A stretch of 53,343 nt of DNA from positions 1 through 53,343 of the forward strand of contig CAJOPB010000101.1 of assembly GCA_905236305.1 (NCBI GenBank), in the 5' to 3' direction. How positions within the stretch are numbered: the first letter of the stretch is position 1; each line of letters begins with the position of its first letter. This DNA is from an uncultured Oscillospiraceae bacterium (GTDB lineage: Bacteria > Bacillota > Clostridia > Oscillospirales > Oscillospiraceae). Position numbers and translations under genes: made by a program. Below the pieces are notes generated by a model that did not search any database, had not been told where the DNA came from, and saw nothing but the letters and a program-made list of their open reading frames with translations. Shown here one piece after another: positions 7,531-11,104 of this stretch.

Positions 7531-9756
7531 TCAAATGGCGGCTGCCGACGTGGCCGCAGCCAGACGGTCGTTTTCTGTGGGAGGCTGATAGCCCTTGCGC
7601 AGCAGCAGCCAGAGCATGAGGGCCAGCAGGGCGATGGCTGCCGCGGTAAATACACTGAAGGAAACCTCACCGGCAATCAGTCCGCCGAGCTGATATACGA
7701 TGAGAGCGACCACATAAGCAAACAGGCACATATATCCGATAGCAGCCAGCGTCCATCTGGGATTGTTCATCTCCCGCCGGATAGCACCCATAGCGGCAAA
7801 GCAGGGGGCACAGAGCAGATTGAAGATCATGAAGCTGTATGCGGTGAGCCCCGTAAAATCCCCGGCGATGGCGGCGTAGAGCGGGCTGGCATCCTCCAGC
7901 AGATCCGCGTCCCCGGCGATGGTGACCGCGTCGCTGTAGAGCACACCAAAGGTGTTGAGCACCTCCTCCTTGGCGATGAGCCCTGTGATAGTGGCTACGG
8001 TGGATTTCCACGCCATGTCTCCGGCAAAGCCGATGGGATAGAAGATCCAGGCGAGGGAACGTCCCGCAGAGGCCAGAAGGGAGGTGTTGTTATCCTCCAC
8101 AGCGCCAAAAATGCCGTCGGTGAAGCCGTAGCCCTGGAGGAACCAGAGGATGATTGAGGAAATCAGGATCACGGTGCCTGCCCGCTTGATGAAGGACCAG
8201 CCGCGCTCCCAGGTGGCGCGCAGTACATTGCCCATGGAGGGAACGTGGTACGCAGGCAATTCCATGACAAAGGGAGCCGGCTCTCCGGCCAAGGCCCGGA
8301 ACTTTTTCAGCATGATACCGGAGAGCACCACAGCGGCAATCCCAATGAAAAAGGCGGAGACGGCCACCAGTGCGGAGTTTCCGAAGATGGCGCCGGCAAA
8401 CAGACCGATGATCGGCATTTTTGCGCCGCAGGGAATAAAGCAGGTGGTCATGACAGTCATTTTGCGGTCCCGGTCCTGTTCGATGGTACGGGAGGCCATG
8501 ACGCCGGGGACGCCGCAGCCGGAGGCTACCAGCATGGGAATAAAGCTCTTGCCGCTGAGACCGAAGCGGCGGAAGATACGGTCCATGACAAAGGCCACTC
8601 TTGCCATGTAACCCACATCCTCCAAAACAGCCAGCAGGAAGGAGAGCACCAGAAGCTGCGGGACAAAGCCCAGCACCGCGCCCACGCCGGCGATGATTCC
8701 GTCCTGAATCAGACCGTAAAGCCACTGGGCGATCACAGGCTCGCCCTCTGCGTTACAGAGCAGCCGGTCCGCCAGAGCGGGGATCCACTCGCCAAAAAGC
8801 GTATCGTTTGCCCAGTCCGTACCCAAAGTGCCGACAGAGAAGGGAAAGCTGCCCATGGCGATGGAATAGATCAGGAACATGATAACCGCAAATATGGGCA
8901 GGGCCAGCACCCGGTTGGTGACGACCCGGTCGATACGGTCGGATACAGTCAGGGCATGACGGGCAAGCTTCTTTTTTACAGATCGGCCAACTATGCTGCT
9001 GATGTAGGCGTAACGCTGATTGGTGATGATGCTCTCGGCATCGTCATCCAGCTCATTTTCACAGTCCAGAATATGCTGGTCGAGGTGCTCAGCCAGGGCT
9101 GTGTCCAGCTGCAGCGCGTCCAGTACCTTTTCGTCCCGCTCAAAGACCTTGATGGCGTACCAGCGCAGATAACCCGGCTCCACCTTGGCCTCGATGGACT
9201 CCTCAATGTGGGCCAGAGCATGCTCCACGCTGCCGGTAAATACATGGGGCGGTTCGGCGGCTTTTTTCTGCTTTGCCGCAGCGACGGCCTTTTCCGCCGC
9301 CTCCATTCCGCCCTCGCCCTTCAGAGCGCTCATCTCCACCACCTCACAGCCCAGCGCTTTTCCCAGCTTGTTGAGGTCGATGGAATCACCGTTGCGCCGG
9401 ACCAGGTCGATCATATTCACAGCCACCACCACCGGGATACCCAGCTCGATCAGCTGCGTGGTGAGATAGAGATTGCGCTCGATGTTTGTGCCGTCCACGA
9501 TATTCAGGATGGCGTCCGGCTGCTGCTGGACCAGATAGTTTCTGGCGACGACCTCCTCCAGAGTGTAGGGGGAGAGAGAATAGATCCCCGGGAGATCCTG
9601 AATAATCACATCCTCCCGTCCCCTCAGCCGGCCCTCCTTTTTTTCCACAGTGACGCCGGGCCAGTTGCCGACGTACTGCCGCGAGCCGGTCAGGGCGTTA
9701 AAAAGTGTTGTCTTGCCGCAGTTCGGATTGCCTGCCAGCGCGATTTTGACGTCCAT
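7531..9756 (-). CDS. feoB: Ferrous iron transport protein B
   Basis: ALAGNPNCGKTTLFNALTGSRQYVGNWPGVTVEKKEG, DLPGIYSLSPYT, multi-TM C-terminus with SGCGVPGVMASR. Confidence 0.97.
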   Translation of the reverse strand: MDVKIALAGNPNCGKTTLFNALTGSRQYVGNWPGVTVEKKEGRLRGREDVIIQDLPGIYSLSPYTLEEVVARNYLVQQQPDAILNIVDGTNIERNLYLTTQLIELGIPVVVAVNMIDLVRRNGDSIDLNKLGKALGCEVVEMSALKGEGGMEAAEKAVAAAKQKKAAEPPHVFTGSVEHALAHIEESIEAKVEPGYLRWYAIKVFERDEKVLDALQLDTALAEHLDQHILDCENELDDDAESIITNQRYAYISSIVGRSVKKKLARHALTVSDRIDRVVTNRVLALPIFAVIMFLIYSIAMGSFPFSVGTLGTDWANDTLFGEWIPALADRLLCNAEGEPVIAQWLYGLIQDGIIAGVGAVLGFVPQLLVLSFLLAVLEDVGYMARVAFVMDRIFRRFGLSGKSFIPMLVASGCGVPGVMASRTIEQDRDRKMTVMTTCFIPCGAKMPIIGLFAGAIFGNSALVAVSAFFIGIAAVVLSGIMLKKFRALAGEPAPFVMELPAYHVPSMGNVLRATWERGWSFIKRAGTVILISSIILWFLQGYGFTDGIFGAVEDNNTSLLASAGRSLAWIFYPIGFAGDMAWKSTVATITGLIAKEEVLNTFGVLYSDAVTIAGDADLLEDASPLYAAIAGDFTGLTAYSFMIFNLLCAPCFAAMGAIRREMNNPRWTLAAIGYMCLFAYVVALIVYQLGGLIAGEVSFSVFTAAAIALLALMLWLLLRKGYQPPTENDRLAAATSAAAI

Positions 9757-9816
9757 TTTCGTCTCCTTTTCGTTCTCATTTACGGTTGTCTTCCACTAAC
9801 TGCATTACCGGAAAAA

Positions 9817-9851
9817 ACGCCGTCCGGCAGCAGGGGATGACGGCGTCTGAT
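9817..9851 (-). terminator. Rho-independent terminator-like hairpin between feoA and feoB
   Basis: Minus strand: ACGCCGTC - 14-nt loop - GACGGCGT followed by TTTTTC (arms 9839-9846 and 9817-9824). Confidence 0.6.
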
Positions 9852-10075
9852 CAGGGAGCGATCTCAATCATTTCAGCGTCCGCCTTGCGCACGCTCAGCT
9901 CATAACCGCGCAGATTCAGCTCCATAGGGTCTCCCAGCGGCGCCACCTTGCGCACATGGATTTCCACGCCCTTGGTGATTCCCATGTCCATAATCCGACG
10001 CTTCACCGGTCCTGACCCGTGCAGCCGGGCCACGGTAACTGTTTCGCCGACACCGGCATCCTTTAATGTTTTCAT
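9851..10075 (-). CDS. feoA: FeoA-domain ferrous iron transport protein
   Basis: 74 aa SH3-like FeoA: KRRIMDMGITKGVEIHVRKVAPLGDPMELNLRGYELSVRKADAEMIEI. Confidence 0.9.
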   Translation of the reverse strand: MKTLKDAGVGETVTVARLHGSGPVKRRIMDMGITKGVEIHVRKVAPLGDPMELNLRGYELSVRKADAEMIEIAP

Positions 10076-10092
10076 AAACTCTCCTCCATTCC

Positions 10093-10305
10093 TTAAACCA
10101 TAATGCGGTTTGCCATGGTGCTGTCCAAAGCCACCCGGCTGTCCTTGACCATCAGGATCAGATTTCCGCCTACGACATTTACCACCGTAATTTCTGCATC
10201 CACTACAAAGCCCAGCTCAGCCAGCCGTTGCCGCACGTCATCCCGCCCGCTTATTTTGCGTATCGTAACAGTCTCTCCTGCGTTGACCATGGTCAGCGGC
10301 ATCAT
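10093..10305 (-). CDS. feoA: Second FeoA-domain protein
   Basis: MMPLTMVNAGETVTIRKISGRDDVRQRLAELGFVVDAEITVVNVVGGNLILMVKDSRVALDSTMANRIMV. ATG at 10305 with an upstream AGAGGTG. Confidence 0.88.
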   Translation of the reverse strand: MMPLTMVNAGETVTIRKISGRDDVRQRLAELGFVVDAEITVVNVVGGNLILMVKDSRVALDSTMANRIMV

Positions 10306-10362
10306 ACGTGACACACCTCTTTCACATGCCATGCTATCGGTTTGTCTTGACTAACTAACTTG

Positions 10363-10391
10363 AGTTTACCACGGCTAACTCTATTTGTCAA
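10363..10391 (-). promoter_or_regulatory. feo promoter
   Basis: Minus strand: TTGACA (10386-10391), 17-bp spacer AATAGAGTTAGCCGTGG, TAAACT (10363-10368). Confidence 0.7.
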
Positions 10392-10506
10392 GCTGCGCGG
10401 CGCATTTTTTTCAAATTTGCCTGTCATCTGCGCAATATGGACGCCTGTGTGCTCTGAAAAACAGACCAAAGAAGCAAAAATCCCACGGCTAACTGGAATG
10501 TTTTCC

Positions 10507-10535
10507 TTGATTTCACAGAATGGCCGGTGTATAAT
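10507..10535 (+). promoter_or_regulatory. SigA-type promoter for trmL
   Basis: TTGATT (10507-10512), 17-bp spacer, TATAAT (10530-10535). Confidence 0.7.
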
Positions 10536-10603: not shown

Positions 10604-11104
10604 ATGATAGATATTATCCTCCATGAGCCTGAAATTCCCATGAATACCGGAAACGTAGCCCGTACCTGCGCCTGCACGGGAGCCCGGCTGCATTTGATCC
10701 GGCCCCTGGGCTTTGACATCAGCGATAAGGCCGTGAAACGTGCGGGGCTGGATTACTGGCAATATCTGGATCTCTCCGTATATGACAGCATTGAGGAATA
10801 TCTGGAATCTAACGGCGACGACGGACTGTGGCTGGCCACAACCAAGGCGCCCCGGAGCTATGCTGAGGCGCCGCTGACCGGTGAGACGGTGCGTCTTCTG
10901 TTCGGCAAGGAGACCGCGGGCCTCCCGCAGTGGCTGCGCGAGCGCTATCGTGACCGCTGTATCCGTATTCCCATGCGGGGTCCGGTCCGTTCGCTGAATC
11001 TGTCCAACTCTGTGGCGATCCTGTGCTATGAAGCTCTGCGTCAGCAGGGCTTCCCGGACCTGCGATCTACCGGCAGTATGCTGGAATCGGACTCCGTTTC
11101 CTGA
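10604..11104 (+). CDS. trmL: tRNA (cytidine(34)-2'-O)-methyltransferase, SPOUT family
   Basis: [59 protein letters not shown]. Confidence 0.92.

Follow-up and report, generated by a model that had tools for sequence, protein, structure and literature searches.

Tandem palindromic boxes at the feo promoter of an uncultured Oscillospiraceae bacterium, candidate operators for an iron-sensing DtxR-family repressor

The divergent promoters of the iron-uptake genes feo and of trmL share an exact 12-bp element in a stretch of 53,343 nucleotides (the window) from an uncultured Oscillospiraceae bacterium. Does this repeat mark operators of an iron regulator, and if so, at one promoter or at both? A preliminary description of this DNA had suggested a regulator of the DtxR/IdeR type, and considered that the second copy could make trmL, and with it a run of glycolytic genes, responsive to iron.

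The repeat is real. CCACGGCTAACT occurs exactly at 10369-10380 and 10483-10494, where the preliminary description had placed it, and when the genome was scanned with the 12-mer core, a check proposed there, these were the only two exact copies, in the window as in the 2.44-Mb assembly. CTAACTAACT, reported as a further repeat, was located at 10351-10360, downstream of the feo -10, and both promoters have the form described, each with -35 and -10 hexamers separated by 17 bp. Direct repeats of at least 12 bp within 150 bp arose in 5/3000 dinucleotide shuffles of the feo-trmL intergenic region. The window as a whole contains six repeats of this kind where shuffles average 0.6, and close 12-mers are thus not very rare here. 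The part of the description that did not stand is the 12-mer as the unit: conserved among relatives is an 18-bp palindrome and not its N6 core, which rules out the 12-mer as the functional unit, and the complete site includes the feo copy only.

We defined the conserved unit, RGTTAG-N6-CTAACY, from aligned feoA upstream regions of relatives in the family. It is found with at least 11/12 matches in 35 of the 36 readable regions, compared with 4/1800 shuffled regions. In the window, the feo promoter (minus strand) is composed of TTGACA (10391-10386), a spacer of 17 bp and TAAACT (10368-10363), an extended -10 preceded by TG; in most relatives, TTGACA stands at an equal distance from the box. The predicted operator O1 (AGTTAGCCGTGGTAAACT, 10363..10380, minus strand, 10/12) is an imperfect palindrome in the -35/-10 spacer, with CCACGGCTAACT as its left two-thirds and a degenerate right half that coincides with the -10 hexamer. 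A first box placed in this way, nnTTAG-N6-TAAACT, with the -10 as its right half, occurs in 23/36 relatives. The predicted operator O2 (AGTTAGTCAAGACAAACC, 10339..10356, minus strand, 11/12) includes part of CTAACTAACT and spans the expected transcription start. O1 and O2 lie 24 bp apart, and the corresponding distance in relatives is mostly 24-36 bp. Both have inverted TTAG...CTAA half-sites six bases apart, which are mostly exact in relatives. When a weight matrix derived from the relatives only was applied to the 53,326 window positions, O2 came first (17.7 bits), O1 second and a further site, O3, third.

Downstream, and likewise on the minus strand, follow feoA1 (10093..10305, PF04023), feoA2 (9851..10075, PF04023) and feoB, encoding the Fe2+ transporter (7531..9756; PF02421, PF07664, PF07670, PF17910). 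The -10 lies within O1, the predicted start under O2 and feoAB behind both, which is the overlap with the promoter that characterizes a DtxR/IdeR operator. For feoA1, the open reading frame 10093-10332 has its start at 10332 probably too far upstream; the likely start is the ATG at 10305, which stands behind GAAAGAGGTG with a ribosome-binding site and gives the N-terminus MMPLTM... as in relatives.

Genome-wide scans were done by pattern searches. Exact boxes occur 147 times in 32 related genomes, compared with 10 occurrences of a reversed-pattern control. Among the genes adjacent to them are those for FeoA/FeoB, flavodoxin, DUF2325, DUF3793, FecCD, a periplasmic binding protein (Peripla_BP_2), ApbE, RnfC, a ZIP transporter and DtxR-family proteins. 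For some of the boxed genes a link to iron is not apparent, and no typical manganese transporter was found among those examined. Several of the divergent gaps beside feo in relatives contain one more box. When at most one mismatch is allowed, the window's own genome has five sites, as many as the reversed-pattern control (five), and the case there rests on position and context rather than on number. All five lie upstream of genes and their positions do not look random: one is O2 at feo, two lie in the gap that separates a DtxR-family gene from an Ada gene, and the others precede a DUF2325-DUF3793-flavodoxin cassette and a PanE/ApbA-like gene.

Three of these surroundings deserve description. 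The cassette (locus L062, contig C63, 1399-1518) has a promoter TTGACA-17-TATACT with two boxes downstream, and is likely an iron-sparing operon. At locus L061 (contig C230, 1344-1518), the DtxR-family gene and the gene of an Ada-type AraC regulator with a metal-binding Ada domain share a gap with two boxes, and the box of the Ada gene was also found in one relative from the genus (locus L117). Among the related genomes, G187 and G028 carry 30 and 13 exact boxes, many of them every few kilobases along a few contigs; two of the cluster sites examined (loci L140 and L143) lie beside FecCD iron-transport genes.

The third-ranking window position, O3 (AGTTAGTGGAAGACAACC, 9784..9801, minus strand, 10/12), is a weaker predicted operator in the gap between feoA2 and feoB. 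In 24/34 relatives, this gap likewise contains a box with at least 10/12 matches (at least 11/12 in 22), compared with 45/3400 shuffles. There, the box is usually preceded by a GC-rich hairpin or a T-run, and the ribosome-binding site of feoB comes directly after it. Upstream of O3, the window likewise has a terminator-like hairpin followed by a T-run (9815..9848, minus strand). Its folding energy of -14.8 kcal/mol is modest relative to shuffles (z -1.4), while the hairpins of four relatives reach z -2.0 to -3.3, and hairpin and/or T-run are kept at the corresponding place in many relatives. No -35/-10 pair was seen in the gap. We tentatively consider that the feo operon of this family might contain a second, internal iron checkpoint, composed of the hairpin or T-run after feoA2 and then the operator, at which an iron-loaded repressor would act as a roadblock to read-through, so that the pump gene stays off even with a leaky promoter.

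The second copy of CCACGGCTAACT (10483..10494, plus strand) is separated by 12 bp from the trmL -35 downstream of it. It retains one half-site, AGTTAGCCGTGGGATTTT on the minus strand, together with the variable core, while the second half-site is missing. The adjacent trmL promoter, TTGATT (10507-10512)-17-TATAAT (10530-10535) on the plus strand, is conserved in the genus. trmL itself (10604..11104, plus strand; PF00588, with TIGR00185 just below cut-off) is the first gene of trmL-pgk-tpi-gpm-eno, and the order trmL-pgk-tpi-eno is conserved in the genus.

How this copy came to lie there may be connected with the history of feo. The feo segment (7531-10332) is nearer to family members outside the genus than to those within it, while its flanks follow the genus: over its first 330 aa, FeoB shares about 80% identity with non-genus family members and 62-67% with members of the genus, whereas the flanking cysS and trmL are both closest to the genus. 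On this ground, horizontal acquisition or replacement of feo is probable. A chimeric contig as the source of the feo-trmL neighbourhood is not favoured, since the genes on the left (cysS) and on the right (trmL) both point to the genus. In no relative examined does feo lie beside trmL, and the neighbourhood was seen only in this genome. The copy could be left over from the rearrangement by which feo came to lie beside trmL rather than a product of pure chance, an origin to which the foreign affinity of FeoB and the singular neighbourhood lend some weight, but which we regard as rather unlikely, given that the identity does not extend past the 12 bp in either direction and that the far edge of the feo segment has no third copy.

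Which protein would read the boxes at feo? Two DtxR-family proteins above the Pfam cut-off, C55 and C230, are encoded in the genome. C55 exceeds the cut-off with both PF01325 (41.7 bits) and PF02742 (52.7 bits), and its best match among solved structures is DtxR (2.5e-13). It carries Met10, Cys102, Glu105 and His106, the iron-type primary metal site of DtxR; of the ancillary site, His79 is kept, while Glu83 is replaced by Thr and His98 by Ala. The protein ends at 123 aa, without an SH3-like domain. In about a dozen feo loci of relatives, DtxR-family genes lie near feo, and each of the feo-adjacent proteins scores better to C55 than to C230. In one relative (locus L115), a C55-like gene and DUF2325 face each other across a box. 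No good box was found upstream of the C55 gene in the window's genome; the C230 gene has a box at its own promoter. From these comparisons, C55 appears to be the better candidate for the acting protein. Since none of the DtxR-family genes of this genome adjoins feo, and the assembly is 78% complete, it could lack the true regulator.

The metal is less certain than the family. In C55, Gln43 is replaced by Arg, and the regulators of relatives have Ile, Val, Tyr or Arg there; since Gln43 and some residues of the ancillary metal site are absent from C55 and from the feo-adjacent regulators alike, the choice between Fe and Mn is not certain. In IdeR, Gln43 makes the one direct base contact, to the inner C/G. 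Regulators without Gln43 and a box without a fixed inner C/G are suggestive of a matching change in protein and DNA. The sites might be used by an MntR-like member of the DtxR family, in which case feo would respond either to Mn2+ or to both Fe2+ and Mn2+. Among solved structures, MntR is the best match of C230, whose gene has a box at its own promoter; C55 and C230 both score best to MntR models in NCBIfam, albeit below cut-off; and at position 10 the feo-adjacent regulators carry Asp or Asn, where MntR has Asp. All of these proteins, however, have Cys102 and not the Glu of MntR, C55 has Met10 and matches DtxR best, and the regulon is one of iron uptake and flavodoxin. We therefore regard an answer of feo to manganese as quite improbable.

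Slightly less probable still is that both 12-mer copies are operators of one iron regulator, to which feo and trmL with the glycolytic genes respond together. Exact identity over 12 bp within 115 bp of an operator is infrequent in shuffles of the region, as reported above, and the copy lies directly upstream of the trmL -35. Yet as an operator, the trmL copy reads AGTTAG-CCGTGG-GATTTT and scores 7/12 and -11.3 bits with the relatives-only matrix, which places it at rank 492 in the window, behind 491 better positions. Its identity with the feo copy covers the variable N6 core while a conserved half is lost, the opposite of the pattern expected under selection for an operator. No such copy or site was found upstream of trmL in any relative of genus or family examined, although the trmL promoter is conserved. 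On its site score and its lack of conservation we reject trmL as an iron target, and with it this proposal of the preliminary description; nothing suggests selection for an operator there, and the copy is probably an orphan half-site and not a working switch.

The Fur box is GATAATGATAATCATTATC. That Fur controls feo while the CTAAC repeats serve something else is the least credible reading: one Fur-superfamily protein is encoded in the genome, and in Clostridioides difficile iron genes are under Fur control (PMC6311696), but the box is unlike the Fur box, and the regulator genes recurring beside the boxes belong to the DtxR family and not to Fur.

Taken together, box conservation, regulon, half-box spacing as in IdeR and the DtxR-family genes beside feo in relatives bear out the proposed DtxR/IdeR-type control for feo, which is well supported at the level of sequence comparison. 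We propose that O1 and O2 are tandem operators for an iron-sensing DtxR-family repressor of feoA1-feoA2-feoB, that O3 is possibly a block to read-through, and that the trmL copy is an orphan half-site; to this reading we assign a probability of roughly 0.87. With sufficient Fe2+, the repressor would sit on O1, with the -10 as its right half, and on O2 over the start site, and occupation of both would switch feoA1-feoA2-feoB off. Under low iron it would leave the feo promoter. O3, directly before feoB, may stop read-through into that gene. Each operator is an 18-bp palindrome, the size of an IdeR half box for one dimer.

For a large family of gut Clostridia, in which no published iron regulon was found in the literature searched, these findings provide a precise candidate iron box. 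No paper on the box in these bacteria was found either, which is weak evidence of novelty, as most subscription journals were outside the coverage of the search. The regulon ties the poorly known DUF2325 and DUF3793 to iron limitation, and the conserved predicted operator inside the feo operon is unusual. A misleading lead is removed as well, with no evidence linking trmL or the glycolytic genes to iron.

Among known systems, the feo box most resembles the IdeR half box. In IdeR, the half box TTAGGNNNNCCTAA with its TTAG-N6-CTAA spacing binds one dimer, and at repressed genes the boxes lie over the -10, the start site or both (PMC8464063, PMC10317159); spacing, position at -10 and start, and the association with iron genes are all shared by the boxes described here. 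The difference lies in their organization. Compared with the 19-bp IdeR/DtxR box TTAGGTTAGSCTAACCTAA, a four-repeat form for two dimers that was not encountered at feo, the unit is the two-repeat palindrome of 18 bp, and as a rule the sites have this size for a single dimer, often standing in tandem at a distance of 24-36 bp. Moreover, the extra conserved base lies outside (G-TTAG...CTAA-C), while the inner G/C is free. C55 shares with the DtxR/IdeR proteins of Actinobacteria the winged-helix and metal-binding/dimerisation domains, the four metal ligands and Ser37 and Pro39 of the recognition helix, but differs in its length of about 123 aa without a C-terminal SH3-like domain, in the replaced Gln43 and in the loss of Glu83 and His98. 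Its short two-domain form resembles MntR of Bacillus subtilis and Escherichia coli, the best match of C230. Unlike MntR, the proteins considered here have Cys and not Glu at the position of DtxR residue 102, and the company of their boxes is that of iron, not manganese, genes.
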